A stretch of DNA of 64,000 nt from Halolamina sediminis (GTDB taxonomy: Archaea > Halobacteriota > Halobacteria > Halobacteriales > Haloferacaceae). The notes below the pieces were generated by a model. It was not told where the DNA came from, searched no databases, and saw only the letters and a list, made by a program, of their open reading frames with translations. Of this stretch, positions 37,511 to 48,445 are shown piece by piece. Numbering within the stretch: position 1 is the first letter of the stretch; each line of letters starts with the position of its first letter. The translations under genes were made by a program, and so were the position numbers. The stretch spans positions 682,001 through 746,000 of the forward strand of contig NZ_CVUA01000001.1 in the NCBI RefSeq assembly GCF_001282785.1, written 5' to 3'.

Positions 37511-38848
37511 CTATTCGACGTACTCGTACAGCCGCTCGTTCATCCGGCCGCGGCCGGCGAACACGAACTCGCCGTCGGGCGTGGTGAACTCCTCGACGTC
37601 GACGGTCATGTCGTGGTTGTGGACGTCGTGGATCTGCTCGTACTCCTCGAAGTCGAGATCGTAGCGCGCGTCGAGCTGTTCGTCGATGTTCAGCTTCTCG
37701 ATCTCGTCGAGCCAGCCGTCGGCGACGGTCTCGGCGTGGATCTCCGCCTGCGCGCCCGAGCCGTAGGAGCCGACGAGGAGCTTCTCGCCGGCGAGATCAC
37801 GACCCTCCGCGGCGGCCTGCTTCAGCGCGCTCGCGCGGGCGACGTGGACCGAGCCGGTGTACCAGTTCCCGACCTCTCGGGCGATCGACAGCGTCGGCTC
37901 GATGGTGTCGGCGTACCACGACTGGTACGTGTCGGTGCGCTTGAGCTCGTCCATGTACTCCTGGATCGCGTCCTCGTAGGCGTCCCAGTCCTCGAACTCG
38001 CTCTCGCGGGGCTGGCGCCCGATCTCGTCGGCGAGCTCGTCCTCGATCTCGGTGTCGCGGATCATGTGCCGGTAGCCCAGCAGGCCCGCCTTCCGGACCA
38101 TCCCCGGGAACGGCGTGTGGAACGGGATGTACGTGAAGTCGTCGGGGTGCATGTCCCACGCGACGGACTCGAAGTCCTCGACGGCCTCGCGCATCCGGGC
38201 GAGGTACACCTGCATCGAGCGCTTGCCGTCGACGCTCGGGAACTGCTGGTTCGGCTTCAGGAAGTCGGTCTCGTCGGCGCTGCCGTACCCCTGCTCCGTC
38301 GAGAGTTCGACGAGGCTGGGGTCCTCGGTGATCAGCATCGCGACAGCGCCGGCGCCCTGGGTCGCCTCCCCGCTGGAGCCGCGGGCGTAGAGTGCGGTGT
38401 CGGTCGCGACGACGATCGCGGAGCGGCCGCGGTTGCGGCCCGCCTTGATCCAGTTGTACGCATCGTCGATTGACTGCGTCCCGGCGATGCAGGCGAACTT
38501 CCGCTCGCCCTTGTTGGCGTGGTGGAAGTCGCCGTCGTACACCTCCTCCAGACAGCCCGCGATGTACGTGGAGACGGGCTTTGAGTTGTCGAACGCGGAC
38601 TCGGTCGCCACGTCGATGCGGCCGATGTCGTCCGGCTTCAGGCCCTTGCGGTCCATCAGGCGCTTGGCGGCGTTAGCGCCCATCGTGACGATGTCCTCGT
38701 ACACGTCCGGGAACGAGGAGTTCTCCAGCCCCAGCCCCTTCCGGTACTTGTCCGGGTCTTCGTCCTTCTCCGGGGCGAACGTGCCCGGGAGATCGAGTTT
38801 GGTCTTGCCCGCCCAGATCTCGACGGCGTCGATGCCCACGGTAGTCAT
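37511..38848 (-). CDS. hmgB: Hydroxymethylglutaryl-CoA synthase
   Basis: Condenses acetyl-CoA and acetoacetyl-CoA to HMG-CoA, the committed entry to the mevalonate pathway for archaeal isoprenoid lipids. The 445-residue thiolase-fold enzyme has catalytic Cys120 (FACIAGTQS) and the general base His244 in [10 protein letters not shown], plus Glu83 in the ATESAFD motif. The length matches the haloarchaeal enzyme. A TATA-like box 25 nt upstream of ATG 38848 gives a leaderless transcript. It is convergent with the aminopeptidase gene. Confidence 0.95.
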
Positions 38849-38876: not shown

Positions 38877-38930
38877 GGTTTGTCGATGAGGGTTACGTCG
38901 ATTGTGGAAATAAATAATTAGAGGTGTCGG

Positions 38931-39863
38931 TTATCCTGCTTGGAACTCGATCGTCTCACTCGCCGTGTTGCCCGCTTCGTCGGTAACCGTGATCGTGATT
39001 AGGTAGGTGTTCCCGCCAGTGTAGTCATCTTGTACAAGAGTGGTTTCCCCGGCTGTAGATGCACTGTACGAAGCTGCATCGACTTGGCTCCGATAGAACA
39101 GCACTCTTTGCTCCATCGTAATGGATACATCCGAAATCTTTCGGTTATCGTACACCTCCCAAGACACTGTAACGTTCGCCTTTGAAGCCGTGTAAGGGCC
39201 GAAGAACCCTTGTCTCTGCTCAGTCGTCGTGTTGTCCGCAATTATCTCGAATGACTCGATAGTTGGGTCTGTGGTGTCAGGCCCTGACGGGGTTGCGGTG
39301 GGAGTAGCGGTGGGCGTCGCGGTGAGTGTCGCGGTGGGTGTCGCGGTGGGTGTTGCGGTGGGTGTTGCGGTGGGTGTCGCGGTGGGTGTTGCGGTGGGCG
39401 TTGCGATGGGTGTCGCGGTACTGGCAGGCGTGCTCGTAGTGACCGTCCGCATCCACTCCTCCCCCACGGCCCACTCCTCACTGTAGAGTCGGCTCTCGCT
39501 AGGCAGATGGTACAGCGTCACGCCGACGACAGACCCGCGGCTGACGTTCGCATACTCGGAGACGTTCACCGACCACGTCTCCCCAGGTGTGAACTCCTCC
39601 CCGAGTGGGGGGTAGGCGACCCGGCTCCCGTTCACCTCGACGGAGAGCCGTAGCTCTCCCGCACCGACGGAGTCACCCCCGGCGTGAGTGATCGTCACGT
39701 TCGGGGGATCGGTGTCGCCCTCGATGGAGAACAGCGGTCGGTCGCCGCCGTCGTCGAGCGTCGGGAGATAGAAAGCGCCGAAGGCACCGACCGAGAGCAC
39801 GAGGACTCCCGCGAGGAGGATGACGCCGATGGATTCGGACTGTGCGCGGGTGTCTAGGAGCAT
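38931..39863 (-). CDS. Type IV pilin-like surface protein with Ala-Thr-Pro-Thr repeat
   Basis: A 310-residue secreted protein. The N-terminus is a type IV pilin/archaellin class III signal (RAQSESIGVILLAGVLVLSV), probably processed by the prepilin peptidase PibD. Then follow a beta-rich domain (about 40-145), a low-complexity stalk of repeated ATPT tetrapeptides (about 148-192), and an Ig-like domain resembling an archaeal PKD/Ig fold (VTVSWEVYDNRKISDVSI, ITVTDEAGNTASETIEF). Base composition is lower in GC than the surrounding core genes. It sits directly downstream of a second pilin-like gene on the same strand and is likely cell-surface exposed. Confidence 0.78.
   Translation of the reverse strand: MLLDTRAQSESIGVILLAGVLVLSVGAFGAFYLPTLDDGGDRPLFSIEGDTDPPNVTITHAGGDSVGAGELRLSVEVNGSRVAYPPLGEEFTPGETWSVNVSEYANVSRGSVVGVTLYHLPSESRLYSEEWAVGEEWMRTVTTSTPASTATPIATPTATPTATPTATPTATPTATPTATLTATPTATPTATPSGPDTTDPTIESFEIIADNTTTEQRQGFFGPYTASKANVTVSWEVYDNRKISDVSITMEQRVLFYRSQVDAASYSASTAGETTLVQDDYTGGNTYLITITVTDEAGNTASETIEFQAG
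39289..39420. repeat. 12-bp minisatellite encoding the ATPT stalk
   Basis: About eleven imperfect copies of the 12-bp unit GCGGTGGGTGTC (plus-strand view) run in tandem inside the pilin-like gene and encode the ATPT repeat on the minus strand. Unit length is a multiple of three, so copy-number change would lengthen or shorten the stalk without a frameshift. Confidence 0.9.
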
Positions 39864-39874
39864 ATCTGGTGGGG

Positions 39875-41887
39875 TCAGCTCTCGACTTCGCCAATGCTCG
39901 GCTCGCCCACCACCTGGTCATCGTCCTCCACTTCCGCGTTCAATGTCGCCGCATTCCCCGCCTGATCCAGGATCTCCATCCCCTCGACTTGTAACTGTGT
40001 GTTCTCGGAGTCGAGCGACGCCGACCGTTCGTTCTTTGCTTGGACAGTTGACTGTCGGAGATCGATCCCGTTCGTCGCCGACAGCGACACCTTTCCATTC
40101 GTCGACTCGATCGTCGTCCGTCTAGCGTCTAGGGCACCAATTGAATCGATACTTACCTCGTTTTTCGCCTTGATCGCCCCGTCGGTGATGTCGACGCTCC
40201 CCTCGGGCACGATTGTGATTTTCCCGTTGCTCGACTCCATGGTCGCTCCCCGTGCGCTGAGTGCTCCTTCGGGGCTCAGCTTGATTTCGTTTTTCGCCTT
40301 GAGGGCCCCGCTATTGATATCGAGTTGCCCCTCGGGGTCAAGTGTGACTTTTCCGTTCCGGGACTCGACAGTTCCCCCGATAGTCGTATCCCCGACGTCA
40401 CTCGAGACTGTAAAGTCGTTCTTGCTTGATACGGTCGCCCTGTCTTTGACGGTGAAACTCCTCGCCTCGTCAATGCTGATCTTGTCGTTCGTACTCAGCG
40501 AGTCGGCGATGACCAAATCCGTGTTCGGATTCGAGTAGCCGTTCAGGTCGGATGCCGTGTAGCGCGTCTCACCGCTCTGGTACTGGCCGTCCCCGTTCGT
40601 GTCGTTGAATGCAACGTACTCGTTTCCGCTACCGTCTGACCCCGGGACACCGCCACCGCCGTTGTTGCCGGTACCGCTCCCGTCGATGTTCACAACGGTG
40701 AGGTTCACTTGAGCGCGCTCCGCGGCCGAGCTGTTGTCGTCGAAGGTCGCTTCCATCGTAACTGATTGCGCATTTCCGTCTATGTTGTCGGGTGCTCGGT
40801 ACTGTACGTCGATCTTGCCGTCGTGCTCGCTGGTGTTCGCCGTGGTGGTCGACCTACAACTGCTTGGATTGTCTATGTAGACACATCCTAACATGTTGTT
40901 GATCGAGATCGTCACATTCCGTTCACCGGTCGGATTGTTGAGCTCGTCCCGAAGTTCGAACCGAACGGTCTGCTCAGTGTTCTCGCTGACCGTCGAATCA
41001 CCACTGACTGCAGTCAGATACACCGCCGCAGTCTGCCCTTCACTGCCGACCGTGCCGACACTAACCTTCGAGACACTGAGTTCGTAGTTCCCAGGCTCCA
41101 GCACCAACCTGATGCGGTCGAACTCCTCGTCGACCGAGCCTGCTGGCTCGACAGTCAGCACTCGTTCCTCGCTAGTCAAGTCTTCCCAATGCTCGACGCT
41201 CAGCCGAGTCGCGAGCGTGATCGTGACGTTTTGATCGCTGTCGATCTCGACCGTGTTCTCTGAACTGCTCACCGAGCGGACATCGAGGGAGGTGGCGTAC
41301 GAGCCACCTTTACTGAGATCCCCCGCGAGGAGGACGAGATTGATACGGTTCCCCTGAATCAGCTGCTGGTCGGTGGTGGGTATCTTCGCGTCTTGTTGTG
41401 CGTTGAAAACGACACCAGTGCCGGTATCAATCCCCGTATCGGGCGCGTTCTGGTACTCGTTGTAGTTCGGGGAGTAAACGATCGCTCCCGTATTGAACGC
41501 CCGGTCGCTCCCGTTCCAGTAGTCACCTACATCCCCATCTGCGGTCGCGTTCCCAATTGTGACGTTCACGCTCTCATCACTCGTCCCCACGGTCTCGATG
41601 TTGCCCGACGGTGGTGGTGGATTAATGAACACCGCACGGGCGGGGTATCTGGTGCCCAACTGCACTGTCGTCGCGGTCGTTCGTCCGGTCCGTCCCGCTG
41701 TGAGCAGGTCGTTCCGGAGGTCAAGCATATCCATCCCGACCGCCTGATTGTGGTTGTACTCGATCTCGGCGTTCTGTTGGGGGACGACCGTCGTCTGGTA
41801 CGTAGTGAGGGCGATAACGAGAAAGCCGAACAGCAGTATCGCCCCGACTTGGATGGACTGCCCCCGGTCGTCACCCCAGAACTCCAT
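39875..41887 (-). CDS. Type IV pilin-like surface protein with beta-solenoid C-terminus
   Basis: A 670-residue surface protein. The class III signal and hydrophobic helix are RGQSIQVGAILLFGFLVIAL, followed by a pilin-like helical extension (VVPQQNAEIEYNHNQAV). A long beta-rich ectodomain follows, containing a Cys pair near 350 and a DTNGDGQYQSGET acidic loop. From about 485 to 634 it has seven regularly spaced KNE/NGK units (Asn490, 511, 533, 554, 576, 597, 619), a 21-22 residue period typical of a beta-solenoid. It is co-directional with the next pilin-like gene 11 bp downstream. The family of the central part is not recognised. Confidence 0.75.
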   Translation of the reverse strand: MEFWGDDRGQSIQVGAILLFGFLVIALTTYQTTVVPQQNAEIEYNHNQAVGMDMLDLRNDLLTAGRTGRTTATTVQLGTRYPARAVFINPPPPSGNIETVGTSDESVNVTIGNATADGDVGDYWNGSDRAFNTGAIVYSPNYNEYQNAPDTGIDTGTGVVFNAQQDAKIPTTDQQLIQGNRINLVLLAGDLSKGGSYATSLDVRSVSSSENTVEIDSDQNVTITLATRLSVEHWEDLTSEERVLTVEPAGSVDEEFDRIRLVLEPGNYELSVSKVSVGTVGSEGQTAAVYLTAVSGDSTVSENTEQTVRFELRDELNNPTGERNVTISINNMLGCVYIDNPSSCRSTTTANTSEHDGKIDVQYRAPDNIDGNAQSVTMEATFDDNSSAAERAQVNLTVVNIDGSGTGNNGGGGVPGSDGSGNEYVAFNDTNGDGQYQSGETRYTASDLNGYSNPNTDLVIADSLSTNDKISIDEARSFTVKDRATVSSKNDFTVSSDVGDTTIGGTVESRNGKVTLDPEGQLDINSGALKAKNEIKLSPEGALSARGATMESSNGKITIVPEGSVDITDGAIKAKNEVSIDSIGALDARRTTIESTNGKVSLSATNGIDLRQSTVQAKNERSASLDSENTQLQVEGMEILDQAGNAATLNAEVEDDDQVVGEPSIGEVES

Positions 41888-41926: not shown

Positions 41927-42514
41927 TCAGTCCTCTTCTTCAACGGTTTCCGGCGACGCCAGCGCGTTCTGCAGCGACTCGAGCCCGTTGACCCACTCCG
42001 CGACCAGCCCGTACTCCATCTCCTCGGCCAGCGCGGGGTCGATCTCGTCGCCGTCGATCACGCGCGTCCCGGCCTGAACGATGTAGCCGACCGCGGTGTC
42101 GATGTCCTCCTCGGCCTCGGCGTCGCCGGCGGCGTCGATGTACTCCTCGACGCTCGCCTCCTCGGCCGCCCCTGCGGCGATGTACTCCTGGGCGGCGTAG
42201 AACACGACTTCGAGGCTCATCTGGACACTCTCGATCAGCATCGCCTTCTCCTCGTTTTCGAGGGGCGCCTCGGCGAGTACGATCTCCTGCATCTCCGTGA
42301 GCTCGTCGTGGGCGCGCTCCTCGTCGATCGTGCCGTCCTCGTAGGATTCGACTACCTTCGCGACCGCGATGGCGGTGTCCTCTTGGAGGTTCATCAGGAG
42401 GCGCGCGGAGTCCTCGTCCTCGAGGTCCAGATCCTCCTCGCGCAGGCGATCGATCCAGTTCTGCCAGCGCTCCTCGGTGTAGAACGTCTCCACGGGCTCG
42501 TCTTCGTCGGTCAT
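41927..42514 (-). CDS. DUF2150-family conserved archaeal protein
   Basis: A 195-residue, very acidic, all-helical protein without transmembrane segments: FYTEERWQNWIDRLREEDLD, LMNLQEDTAIAVAKVVESYE, and SLEVVFYAAQEYIAAGAAEE. It fits the euryarchaeal DUF2150 family, of unknown function. ATG 42514 is the family start. It lies upstream of the pilin-like pair on the same strand, with about 40 bp between it and the next gene. Confidence 0.85.
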   Translation of the reverse strand: MTDEDEPVETFYTEERWQNWIDRLREEDLDLEDEDSARLLMNLQEDTAIAVAKVVESYEDGTIDEERAHDELTEMQEIVLAEAPLENEEKAMLIESVQMSLEVVFYAAQEYIAAGAAEEASVEEYIDAAGDAEAEEDIDTAVGYIVQAGTRVIDGDEIDPALAEEMEYGLVAEWVNGLESLQNALASPETVEEED

Positions 42515-42596
42515 GCCCCCATGTGCTCCCCCAGGACGCAAAGGGTTTTCCTATCGGCTACACCGAGCGAGACACCACATAGCACGGTCGAGCGGC

Positions 42597-45475: not shown

Positions 45476-46110
45476 GCCCAGAGCTCCCCCTCGTGGTCGA
45501 GGAACGTCACCTCGTGGTCCGGGTCGGCGTCGTGGTACTCCGACTGCGTGACGCTGTAGCGCACGACGTCGACGGGCCCGTCGCCGTCGCTGTGGAAGTT
45601 CCGCAGCGTCCCCTCGCGGCGGCCGCCCATGCGGTCGATGTACTTCTCGATCGCTCGTTCCGACTGCTCGTTGTCGGCGTCGTGGGTCACGGTGACAACC
45701 TCGAGATCGAGGTGTTCGAACGCCAGCTCGGCCAGCGCCAGCGCGCGCTCGCCCGAGTAGCCCCGCCCCCAGAACGGCTTGCGGAGCCACGTGCCGAGCT
45801 CGGCGCTGTCGGTGTCCCAGTCGAGCGTGAGGCCGCCGAAGCCGGCGATCTCGCCGGCCCCGTCCTCACTCTTCTTCGGCCGGATGACGTAGTCGGCCCC
45901 CTCGTGCTCCTCGCGGAGCTCGACGCCGCCTTCGAGGAACTCGACCGTCGCCTTCGGGTGGGGGTGTGGCTCCCACGGCAGGTACTCGGTGATCTCGTCG
46001 ATGTGTGGGTGGCCAGCCCGGCAGTGGTCGTACAGCTCGAACACGTCGACGTACTCGGGCGTCCGTGGCTCCAGCCGGAGTCGCTCGGTCTCGATGATCG
46101 CGGGGAACAT
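45472..46110 (-). CDS. GNAT acetyltransferase (RimJ/RimL-like), paralogue A
   Basis: A 212-residue acetyltransferase starting MFPAIIETERLRLEPRTPEY, with LRKPFWGRGYSGERALALAE and NEQSERAIEKYIDRMGGRREG. The long shared motif WLRKPFWGRGYSGER with the downstream gene shows recent duplication and divergence. ATG 46110 is the family start; longer in-frame openings run into the promoter region of the VapB-like gene. The two paralogues form a coupled operon. Confidence 0.88.
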   Translation of the reverse strand: MFPAIIETERLRLEPRTPEYVDVFELYDHCRAGHPHIDEITEYLPWEPHPHPKATVEFLEGGVELREEHEGADYVIRPKKSEDGAGEIAGFGGLTLDWDTDSAELGTWLRKPFWGRGYSGERALALAELAFEHLDLEVVTVTHDADNEQSERAIEKYIDRMGGRREGTLRNFHSDGDGPVDVVRYSVTQSEYHDADPDHEVTFLDHEGELWA

Positions 46111-46282
46111 ACTCGTGAGGATGTCGGGGAACTGAAAAAGTCTGCCTCGGCTGTGGGGAGCGCTTGCATACGACGTACCACCGAACGGTTCATCCCGCGG
46201 CGGCCGACTCGCCAACGATGGTGTACTCGATACACTCGCTAGCTTCGACGGGGTTTCGACGCTGACGACGGCATCGGCTATT

Positions 46283-46330
46283 CTGTGGGATAATCCGGGT
46301 ATCTGGGGAATAATTTTGTATCTTCCCACA
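46283..46330 (+). promoter_or_regulatory. AT-rich promoter with inverted repeat before VapB-like gene
   Basis: TGTGGGA (46283-46289) is mirrored by TCCCACA (46324-46330), bracketing an AT-rich segment with GAATAATTTTGTAT (46308-46320) that can serve as TATA box. The start codon is at 46343. Autoregulation through such operators is usual for toxin-antitoxin operons. Confidence 0.45.
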
Positions 46331-46342
46331 TAACACGCGTCT

Positions 46343-46573
46343 ATGTCGGACGTGACTCTCGACGATCGAGGGCGGCTAACGCTCCCGAAGGAGATGCGGG
46401 AGCGGTACGGGGACCGCTATCGTGTCGTCGAACTCCACGACGGTATCAAGCTCGTTCCGATCGCCGACGACCCGCTTGCCGCGCTCAGAGAGGAGTTCGC
46501 CGATATCGATAAGTCGGCTGAGGAGTTTCGCGACGAGGCGCGCGAGGCGGCACTCGAAGAGGCGGGCCACTGA
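46343..46573 (+). CDS. AbrB/SpoVT-type antitoxin (VapB-like)
   Basis: A 76-residue protein with an N-terminal swapped-hairpin AbrB domain (DVTLDDRGRLTLPKEMRERY, about 2-47) and an acidic helical tail (EEFADIDKSAEEFRDEAREA) that probably covers the toxin. The stop TGA is immediately followed by the ATG of the PIN-domain gene. It would bind its own promoter and neutralise the toxin. Confidence 0.87.
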   Translation: MSDVTLDDRGRLTLPKEMRERYGDRYRVVELHDGIKLVPIADDPLAALREEFADIDKSAEEFRDEAREAALEEAGH

Positions 46574-46948
46574 ATGTACGCGGAAACAGATTTCCTGCTC
46601 GCACTCCTCAAAGACGAAGATTGGCTCGGTGACGCAGCCGAGTCAGTGTACCGGGAGTATCGGGACGAGCTGTGGACCTCGCAGTTCACGCTCATCGAAC
46701 TCCTGCTTGTCGCGTATCGTGAAGAGCGGGATACCGCACAGATCGTGACGAACGCCGCCGAGCTTATCGAGGTTCGTGGCGACGTCGATACGGTCGTCGC
46801 GGCAGCGACGTACGTCGAAGCCCACGACTTCACTCCGTTCGACGCGCTCCACCTCGTCGAGTCGGACGGCGATACTGTCGTCTCCAGCGACGGGACGTAC
46901 GAGGGGTTCGCACCACGACTCGACCTGACGGAGGTGGGTGAAGACTGA
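46574..46948 (+). CDS. PIN-domain toxin (VapC-like ribonuclease)
   Basis: A 124-residue PIN-domain protein with the acidic set Asp6 (YAETDFLLAL), Glu42 (TLIELLL), Asp90 (FDALHL) and Asp106 near SSDGTYEG, forming the magnesium site of VapC endoribonucleases. It lies directly after the antitoxin with no spacer. The targets of haloarchaeal VapC are not known. The pair lies between acetyltransferase genes and rfcL, and its composition is somewhat lower in GC than its neighbours, consistent with mobility. Confidence 0.87.
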   Translation: MYAETDFLLALLKDEDWLGDAAESVYREYRDELWTSQFTLIELLLVAYREERDTAQIVTNAAELIEVRGDVDTVVAAATYVEAHDFTPFDALHLVESDGDTVVSSDGTYEGFAPRLDLTEVGED

Positions 46949-46990
46949 TGCTCCGGAACAACTAACCACCGCAGCCACCTCCCTCCGGTA

Positions 46991-48445
46991 ATGGCTGATT
47001 GGACCGAGTCCTACCGGCCCGACACGCTCTCGGCGGTCCGGGGGAACGACAAGGCCCGCGACGCCTTCGAGGAGTGGGGGCAGACGTGGGATGACCACCG
47101 GGAGGCGGTGATCCTCTACGGCAGCCCCGGGGTGGGGAAGACCTCCGCGGCCCACGCGCTGGCGTCGGACATGGGCTGGGAGACGGTCGAACTCAACGCC
47201 TCCGACCAGCGCACCGCCGACAAGATCGAGCGGTTCGCCGGCCGCGCGGCGCGCAACGAGACCCTCGGCGGCGACTCCACCGACGAGGGGGGGCGCCAGC
47301 TCGTCATCGTCGACGAGGCCGACAACATCCACGGCAACTACGACCGGGGCGGCGCACAGGCGATCACCAAACTGGTGAAGGAGTCGAACCAGCCGATCGT
47401 CCTGATCGCCAACGAGTTCTACGAGATGAGCCGCGGGCTCCGGAACGCCTGCCAAGACATCGAGTTCCGAGACGTGTCCGCGCGCTCGATCGTCCCCGTC
47501 CTCCGGGACATCTGCCGGAAGGAAGGGGTCGAGTTCGACGCCGACGCGCTCCAGCGCATCGCCGACGCCAACAGCGGCGATCTCCGCGGCGCGGTGAAGG
47601 ACCTGCAAGCGACCGCCGAGGGGAAAGAGCACCTCACCGTCGAGGACGTGGTCACCGGCGACCGCGACACCACGGCGGGCATTTTCACTGTCCTCGACGC
47701 GATTCTGAAGGAGGAGGAGAGCGCACAGGACGCGCTGCACGTCGCCTACGACGCCGACGAGACGCCGGACGACCTCACGGCGTGGGTCGAGGACAAGGTG
47801 ATGAAGGTGTACGAGCCCGAGGAGACCGTCCGGGCCTACGAGTTCCTCGCGAACGCCGACCGCTGGCTGGGCCGCGTCCAGGCCACCCAGGACTACTCCT
47901 ACTGGCGCTACGTCACCGACAACACCGCCGCGGGCGTCGCAGCCTCGCGGGACGGCACCTCCGGCGGCTGGACGCAGTACGGCGGGCGACCACAGATGTG
48001 GCCCGCCTCGGACGCGACGATCGACGAGATCTGCCGGAAGATCGCGGTCTCGGGCGGGCTGAGCATCGAGACCGCCCGGCGGGAGGTGCTCCCGTTCCTC
48101 TCGGCGATGATCCACCACTGCAAGCCCCGCGAGCTCGCGGTCGCCGTGACGGCGTACTTCGAGTTCGACGAGGAGGACCTCGCGGCGGTCTCGGGTAGTG
48201 GCGAGTCCACCAACAAGGTACAGGGGATCGTCGCGGACGCCGAAGAACTCCGCGAGGAACAGATGGAGGAGCACGCCGGCGGCGCGTTCGCGGGCGAGCT
48301 CCCGGACCGTGAGGACGAGGCCGAGGAGGCAGCATCCGGCGACGCCGAGTCGACCCCGGAGGACGACGCGGCGGAACCGGAGCCGGACGACTCCGAGGAG
48401 GAAGAGGCGGACGACTCGCAGGCGGGGCTCTCGGACTTCGTCTAG
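46991..48445 (+). CDS. rfcL: Replication factor C large subunit
   Basis: The clamp-loader subunit that, with RfcS, opens and loads the PCNA ring. The 484-residue protein has the AAA+ box WTESYRPDTLSAVRGND, Walker A GSPGVGKT (44-51), Walker B LVIVDEADNI near 105, and sensor and arginine regions in SARSIVPVLRDICRKEGVEF. The helical C-terminal half ends with a very acidic tail and a short ...QAGLSDFV that may be a PCNA-interacting peptide. ATG 46991 is the family start. Confidence 0.95.
   Translation: MADWTESYRPDTLSAVRGNDKARDAFEEWGQTWDDHREAVILYGSPGVGKTSAAHALASDMGWETVELNASDQRTADKIERFAGRAARNETLGGDSTDEGGRQLVIVDEADNIHGNYDRGGAQAITKLVKESNQPIVLIANEFYEMSRGLRNACQDIEFRDVSARSIVPVLRDICRKEGVEFDADALQRIADANSGDLRGAVKDLQATAEGKEHLTVEDVVTGDRDTTAGIFTVLDAILKEEESAQDALHVAYDADETPDDLTAWVEDKVMKVYEPEETVRAYEFLANADRWLGRVQATQDYSYWRYVTDNTAAGVAASRDGTSGGWTQYGGRPQMWPASDATIDEICRKIAVSGGLSIETARREVLPFLSAMIHHCKPRELAVAVTAYFEFDEEDLAAVSGSGESTNKVQGIVADAEELREEQMEEHAGGAFAGELPDREDEAEEAASGDAESTPEDDAAEPEPDDSEEEEADDSQAGLSDFV

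Follow-up and report, generated by a model that had tools for sequence, protein, structure and literature searches.

Why should two pilin-like genes of conspicuously low GC content lie between core genes of a haloarchaeal chromosome, and were they imported as a unit or did they diversify in place? We addressed this question in a stretch of 64,000 nucleotides from Halolamina sediminis (hereafter, the window), for which an initial annotation had proposed a horizontally acquired or fast-evolving cell-surface module. How haloarchaea come to engage one partner, surface or virus and not another is, to our knowledge, mostly unsettled, and a fixed carrier at a fixed address with a swapped exposed domain would provide a testable candidate for such a determinant.

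Two pilin-like genes between hmgB and the DUF2150 gene

Open reading frames and profile matches in the window located two genes for class III (pilin-like) proteins, both on the minus strand, at positions 38931-41887, bounded by hmgB and the DUF2150 gene (Table 1). The pair with class III signals that the initial annotation had described was recovered with exact coordinates, and both flanks were confirmed by profiles. Judged by eye, the two proteins open with class III-type leaders, DDRGQSIQVGAILLFG and DTRAQSESIGVILLAG, which we take to carry the class III cleavage motif. An invertible cassette in the window was considered and dismissed, as no long inverted repeats surround the genes (longest pair, 31 nt at 74%).

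Table 1. Coordinates of the locus, its flanks and its parts, in window positions
Feature	Position	Strand	Remarks
DUF2150 gene, upstream flank	41927..42541	-	PF09920, 6.1e-63; conserved neighbour; likely ATG at 42514
Gene 1, 670-aa class III (pilin-like) protein, conserved head and variable tip	39875..41887	-	
Gene 1 residues 1-306: leader, 60-residue helix, conserved beta head	40970..41887	-	alignments A1 and A3; model
Gene 1 residues 307-402: most of Ig domain, Big_1/invasin/SbsC type	40682..40969	-	structure match spans 286-402
Gene 1 residues 421-670: distal part with predicted beta-solenoid	39878..40627	-	model; relatives in other genomes
Gene 2, 310-aa class III Pilin_N protein	38931..39863	-	PF07790, 1.4e-07
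12-bp tandem repeat (VNTR) coding for ATPT stalk	39292..39419	-	11 units here, 23 in H. pelagica CDK2 (G002)
Gene 2 Ig-like domain	38934..39287	-	GC3 0.593
Recent exchange with the G002 lineage, approximate extent	38907..39314	.	five differences, all amino-acid changing
hmgB, downstream flank	37511..38848	-	NF041302, 4.3e-266

With its leader, identified by eye, and a modelled hydrophobic N-terminal helix, gene 1 has the features of a type IV pilin-like protein. AlphaFold predicted a long helix at residues 7-67 followed by a beta head (pLDDT 88, pTM 0.84). The model continues with an Ig domain at residues 286-402, which matched invasin and SbsC folds with Z of about 11 in structure comparison, a low-confidence linker (residues 403-422) and a beta-solenoid at about residues 445-645, in which the blocks of 445-610 reached pLDDT 89-97; the beta-solenoid suspected earlier is thus predicted. 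The conserved part is formed by the first ~305 residues, comprising the pilin helix and the beta head. Residues R8, G15, Q31, N39, E43, G78, R84 and N89 are invariant in alignments A1 (32 members) and A3 (55 members), and the leader region R-A/G-Q/A/V and the helix are kept across both. Against solved structures, Foldseek found no match to the head at E ≤ 0.001 and the best Z from VIA-align 2 was 2.8, an absence that does not demonstrate a new fold. The window's gene 1 had no Pfam match in any part at E ≤ 0.01, Pilin_N (PF07790) included, and Pilin_N matched two of 32 relatives weakly.

Gene 2 scored 32.7 bits against the Pilin_N cut-off of 25.2 and is built from a Pilin_N part, an ATPT stalk and an Ig-like end. 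The stalk noticed in the initial annotation is real, being encoded by 10.4 copies of the 12-bp tandem repeat. Among congeners, G005 lacks gene 2 at the locus, the G002 copy has lost two single bases near its start relative to the window, and the copy in H. salifodinae (G003) carries an in-frame stop ahead of the stalk. Gene 2 may thus be dispensable, or the drafts may be faulty, which counts against the explanation that we favor below; the interruptions in G002 and G003 may be sequencing errors.

Base composition and chromosomal position of the locus

The higher AT content relative to the flanking genes, from which a foreign origin had been suspected, was borne out by both sliding-window GC and GC3 percentiles. 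In 500-base windows, the GC content of the locus was 0.53-0.67, mostly 0.56-0.61, and that outside it mostly 0.66-0.71. The background for percentiles comprised 345 genes, gene 1 among them, from the window and 20 other 20-kb stretches of its genome (464 kb in all); they were called with a simple codon model from ORFs of at least 120 aa, a crude set that surely includes false genes. Gene 1 had the lowest GC of all 345 (0.582), and its GC3 of 0.734 stood at the 2.0th percentile, or at the 2.3rd when the background was restricted to 261 acidic proteins. Gene 2 stood at the 1.7th percentile (GC3 0.716) and is internally split, its first part having a GC3 of 0.827 and its Ig domain, at 0.593, falling below every sampled gene (minimum 0.670). 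At the opposite extreme was hmgB (GC3 0.957, 97th percentile), with the DUF2150 gene at 0.918; because hmgB is unusually codon-biased, the contrast at its border is partly due to hmgB itself. Across loci, GC3 of gene 1 was below that of hmgB in 29 of 29 and below that of the DUF2150 gene in 28 of 33 (locus L057, where the motif was not found, was left out). Low GC3 is therefore typical of gene 1 over the long term and gives no sign of recent import.

The position of the locus was followed in two samples. DUF2150 matched 56 of 60 relatives, and 40 of the 56 matching loci plus the window made up a set of 41, in 34 of which a gene 1 homologue adjoins the DUF2150 gene. Both flanks were present in 34 loci, counting the window, and gene 1 separates them in 30; in the remaining four, the gap from DUF2150 to hmgB is just 133-471 bp. 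The second sample, 80 named loci representing the best 80 of 101 matches to gene 1 and sharing some genomes with the first, had gene 1 between DUF2150 and hmgB in all 62 loci with both neighbours; in the other 18, one or both neighbours were missing from the sequence covered. Among the 62, again from the best 80 of 101 matches, gene 1 is on the DUF2150 strand in 58 and inverted in four. Its orientation has thus been flipped in place in some genomes.

Gene 1 was found in all seven Halolamina genomes searched, and a head-domain profile matched 324 of 392 Halobacteriales genomes at 1e-10, with matches in 291 of 345 good-quality genomes and 78 of 95 genera; a scan of genome contigs with the single gene 1 sequence found no relative. 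Three near-identical gene 1 copies in one genome (G204) were set aside, since the stretches that contain them, more than 13 kb long and 99.96% identical, resemble an assembly duplication or a large repeat. In the head-domain tree, sequences group mostly by genus and family. The 65-row tree needs two changes for the Halolamina heads, but a single clade for the genus withstood the AU test (p 0.356) and Halolamina stays together in a tree of 14 rows (81/85), so the trees do not establish multiple origins of Halolamina heads. The tree position of the G003 head is unsettled, which counts against the explanation that we favor below.

Could the two genes have come recently, as an island, from a lower-GC archaeon? 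Their low GC and GC3, and above all the GC3 of the gene 2 Ig domain, would fit such an acquisition, but it is contradicted for the locus by the same position across the order, by the lineage-like head tree and by a low GC3 that is typical of gene 1 wherever it was compared with hmgB. We therefore regard recent insertion as highly improbable, and the horizontal origin proposed for the locus was not upheld. On the evidence of these comparisons, the locus is old and positionally fixed; for the gene 2 Ig domain by itself, import from a lower-GC archaeon is possible.

Variable tips across haloarchaeal genera

Proteins encoded by gene 1 loci range from 364 to 1,117 aa, and their conserved heads are joined to unrelated tips. 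Big_1 was detected in 24 of 32 relatives at E ≤ 0.01 and in 28 of 55 at E ≤ 0.001, mostly below the curated cut-off in members inspected singly. Distal domains elsewhere include PKD, PA14 with a weak GLEYA match, Laminin_G_3 (laminin-G), CARDB, fn3 and others, and several members have a distal part without any named domain. Solenoids related to that of the window occur in 34 of 392 genomes, its own included, and in four genomes (G342, G250, G093 and G230) solenoid relatives lie away from the gene 1 site.

A conserved N-terminus followed by a variable C-terminus might also describe a polymorphic toxin carried by a pilin-like part, an analogy raised for the VARTIG proteins of Thermococcales in the part of that account available to us (PMC8416519). 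However, the recognized distal domains are Ig, PKD, lectin-like, PA14 and solenoid types, no toxin enzyme family is among the domain matches inspected, and gene 2 is exported and is no evident immunity gene. We give this reading next to no credence.

Abrupt borders are visible in the DNA. We compared six close pairs from four other genera: Haloarcula (two pairs), Halobellus (one), Natrinema (one) and Haloferax (two). In these pairs, most DUF2150 and head chunks align at about 69-98%, DNA similarity disappears between about residues 290 and 400 of gene 1, and it resumes at hmgB or, in Haloarcula, directly past gene 1. Broader pair comparisons, in which pairs are not independent, placed the tip boundary by a motif in 28 of 90 proteins and at residue 310 in the others. 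Among 48 pairs with hmgB identity of 90-95%, 33 gave no BLAST match past the Ig region, and the other 15 matched over at least half; among 23 pairs with hmgB identity of at least 95%, three had no tip match and 20 did, some at only about 36% identity. Given that 20 of these 23 pairs keep a matching tip, replacement is not frequent at every scale.

Exchange within Halolamina

Within the genus, the flanks and the pilin locus have different histories. All 22 of the 200-bp flanking chunks align with each of six congeners (means of 86.7-89.9%). Of 13 chunks from the pilin locus, nine align with G002, three with G003 and none with the other four congeners. The genus also includes H. rubra (G004) and H. 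pelagica CGMCC 1.10329 (G006). A tree of five flanking genes, built from DNA alone (the gene labels "amp" and "gapdh" are guesses), joined the window to G005 at 99/99 and rejected its union with G002 (AU p 1.2e-4). The gene 1 head tree showed the reciprocal pattern, joining the window to G002 at 100/100 and rejecting G005 (AU p 6.9e-6); both AU p-values are optimistic because the clades were chosen after the identities had been seen. Relatives had been expected to share the locus with matching composition and gene phylogeny if the annotated module were neither acquired nor fast evolving. They do share the locus, but within the genus the phylogenies do not match.

Divergence at fourfold sites separates an older from a recent event. 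The gene 1 heads of the window and G002 differ at 43 of 150 fourfold sites, an ordinary level indicating that the shared allele is not recent. By contrast, their gene 2 Ig domains differ at 0 of 52 fourfold sites and show no synonymous codon difference, whereas fourfold differences number 22 of 85 in the remainder of gene 2, its first part (Fisher 1.4e-5), and 44 of 207 in hmgB (Fisher 3.8e-5). The difference inside gene 2 indicates a recent interspecies exchange of the Ig domain. The exchange tract extends from the VNTR or its edge to before hmgB, its left border depending on the alignment register. In a sample that evidently lacked G002, the only close relative of this domain besides itself was in G003 (79% identity), others reaching at most 47% over part of it. 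We found no silent donor copies in the window's own genome, where the solenoid and the gene 2 Ig domain match only themselves; the donors are therefore likely other genomes.

An explanation without interspecies exchange would have the distal part simply mutate fast. Surface domains frequently evolve fast, and the heads of 31 relatives, with one exception, are only 26-42% identical to that of the window. However, plain divergence fits poorly with abrupt borders flanked on both sides by intact DNA similarity, with the reciprocal conflict between flank and head trees, and with identical beside ordinarily diverged fourfold sites within gene 2. As the sole cause it is refuted by the tract and the tree conflict, if these are confirmed in further strains, and we consider it improbable. 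The idea of a fast-evolving surface module was supported, and that of exchange held for alleles and distal domains within a fixed locus, as seen in the tree conflict, the gene 2 tract and the loss of distal DNA similarity, but not for import of the whole locus.

Proposed pilus association and function

A phylum-wide search at 1e-5 matched 193 of 294 genomes, although many weak matches cover little past the helix. The best-scoring homologue outside the order (L245) aligns across the head into the Ig domain. Of six outside-order homologues that we fetched, four adjoin a T2SSE ATPase or a T2SSF/TadC gene, with the other of these next in line; the remaining two have no obvious pilus genes nearby, as judged by eye. 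The window's own genome has six places with T2SSE-family matches, two PilB3_C matches and one match to a PibD-type peptidase. Taken together, the neighbours outside the order and the machinery in the own genome favor reading gene 1 as a minor or tip pilin with a link to pili, an order-wide and mostly unnamed protein tied to pilus machinery through its homologues in other lineages. In the loci read within Halobacteriales, gene 1 lies away from pilus machinery, which counts against this reading; the separation agrees with the view, given in the available portion of a published survey, that in haloarchaea the pilins for ATPase/TadC modules are encoded in trans (PMC4858521).

The same separation would suit membrane-anchored stalks, in which class III helices hold both proteins as single S-layer-spanning molecules with no pilus and the exchange of tips is unchanged. 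The gene 1 proteins are also very large for pilins, and their Ig domain resembles those of S-layer SbsC and invasin. Against stalks stand the ATPase and TadC genes adjoining the outside-order homologues, and the 60-residue helix and class III leader, which fit a pilin. We see stalks as a lesser but real prospect. Weighing these observations, we think it probable that gene 1 encodes a minor or tip pilin linked to pili, and that homologous recombination exchanges its alleles and distal domains at an old, fixed locus.

In the mechanism that we propose for this pilin, a PibD-type peptidase would cut off the class III leader of gene 1, and the long helix would be inserted into a filament built by PilB/PilC. 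As the predicted structure suggests, the conserved beta head and the Ig domain would hold a distal binding domain outward; the fold types, exposure and variability of the tip suggest that it binds something. Gene 2 would encode an accessory protein of the Pilin_N type, with an ATPT stalk that varies in length and an Ig-like domain at the end. Homologous recombination between species would replace distal domains and, at times, entire alleles; it would be anchored in the DUF2150 gene and the gene 1 head and in hmgB, or, for gene 2, in the VNTR and hmgB.

Comparison with known systems

Titles and abstract openings, to which our literature search extended (most subscription papers and all supplements lay outside it), held no description of this locus. 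Proteins with variable regions have been listed for haloarchaea, in several families, and for Thermococcus, in a pilin; the gene 1 family is not among them in the accessible text (PMC9425974). The Ig domains of invasin, intimin and SbsC share the fold of gene 1 residues 286-402, but their anchoring and context differ and the fold alone is common. Also comparable is arCOG02911, for which a role as minor pilin has been predicted in the type IV pili of clade 2 Euryarchaeota. As far as the portion of the account at hand goes, it shares with gene 1 a class III leader, an all-beta body and variable length, and it is linked to PilB/TadC loci in several lineages, as gene 1 homologues are in four of the six outside-order loci; by this description alone, its members measure about 250-550 aa, whereas many gene 1 homologues are longer and have modular tips. 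The fixed site between DUF2150 and hmgB and the exchange of tips are features of gene 1 that we did not find in that portion (PMC4858521).

Two archaeal systems invite a functional comparison, here based on the accessible parts of their descriptions. UpsA of Sulfolobales was shown to set species-specific aggregation before DNA exchange (PMC7064770) and is, like gene 1, a pilin with a region of low conservation; UpsA, however, is a small pilin subunit from a UV-induced operon with an exchanged region at residues 84-98, whereas in gene 1 whole domains differ. VARTIG of Thermococcales is a large surface protein with a hypervariable distal Ig module exchanged between species and not within a genome (PMC8416519), and the gene 1 locus likewise has a hypervariable distal domain exchanged between species. 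VARTIG belongs, by description only, to another protein family (arCOG07710) and resides in variable islands with multi-gene sets. Island organization of this kind was absent from the loci that we compared, in which the flanks are constant and enclose one or two genes, and gene 1 further differs in its fixed site, its pilin carrier, its tips of many folds and its one mappable exchange tract. Our findings bear on the statement of the VARTIG authors that they found nothing comparable to this level of variability outside Thermococcales (PMC8416519). Tentatively, the locus might be a haloarchaeal counterpart of VARTIG and UpsA: a single-site recognition locus in most haloarchaeal genera, with a pilin carrier and strain- or species-specific tips, which would be kept diverse by interspecies recombination and selected for partner choice (aggregation, mating) or virus escape.

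Orientation and copy number of gene 1

Gene 1, which encodes the 670-aa class III pilin-like protein, shows repeated in-place inversion in some genomes. It lies on the strand opposite to the DUF2150 gene, with its site unchanged, in loci L038, L043, L048, L052, and L071, and likewise in the set L116, L126, L133, L137, L144, and L150. At four other loci (L049, L062, L067, and L068) gene 1 is absent, and the gap between the DUF2150 gene and hmgB is just 133–471 bp. Because these two flanking genes are nearly adjacent in loci without gene 1, their pairing seems to be independent of the pilin.

Several genomes carry more than one gene 1 match: five were found in G119, three of them in tandem on contig C2, and three each in G033 and others. 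Such paralogues could possibly serve as an in-genome reservoir; the genome containing the window has no such set. In genome G204, a stretch of more than 13 kb with the DUF2150 gene, gene 1, and hmgB is present in three copies at 99.96% identity, probably reflecting assembly duplication.

Coordinates of the G204 copies and of an ORF in the window
Feature	Sequence	Position	GC3
G204 copy	C1	about 3142000-3156000	
G204 copy	C3	4000-18000	
G204 copy	C3	70000-84000	
ORF in second low-GC patch	window	46574-46948	0.742

Gene 2 interruptions and a second low-GC patch

Gene 2 encodes the 310-aa Pilin_N protein. Of the three Halolamina having its Ig-like domain, two carry an interrupted copy of the gene: H. 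pelagica CDK2 (G002, L033) has two one-base deletions, and H. salifodinae (G003, L034) has an in-frame stop ahead of the stalk. These breaks may represent either sequencing error or on/off variation.

Elsewhere in the window, GC content dips again at 46000-47000. Judging from its sequence, we take the ORF in this patch to resemble a VapC-type PIN toxin.
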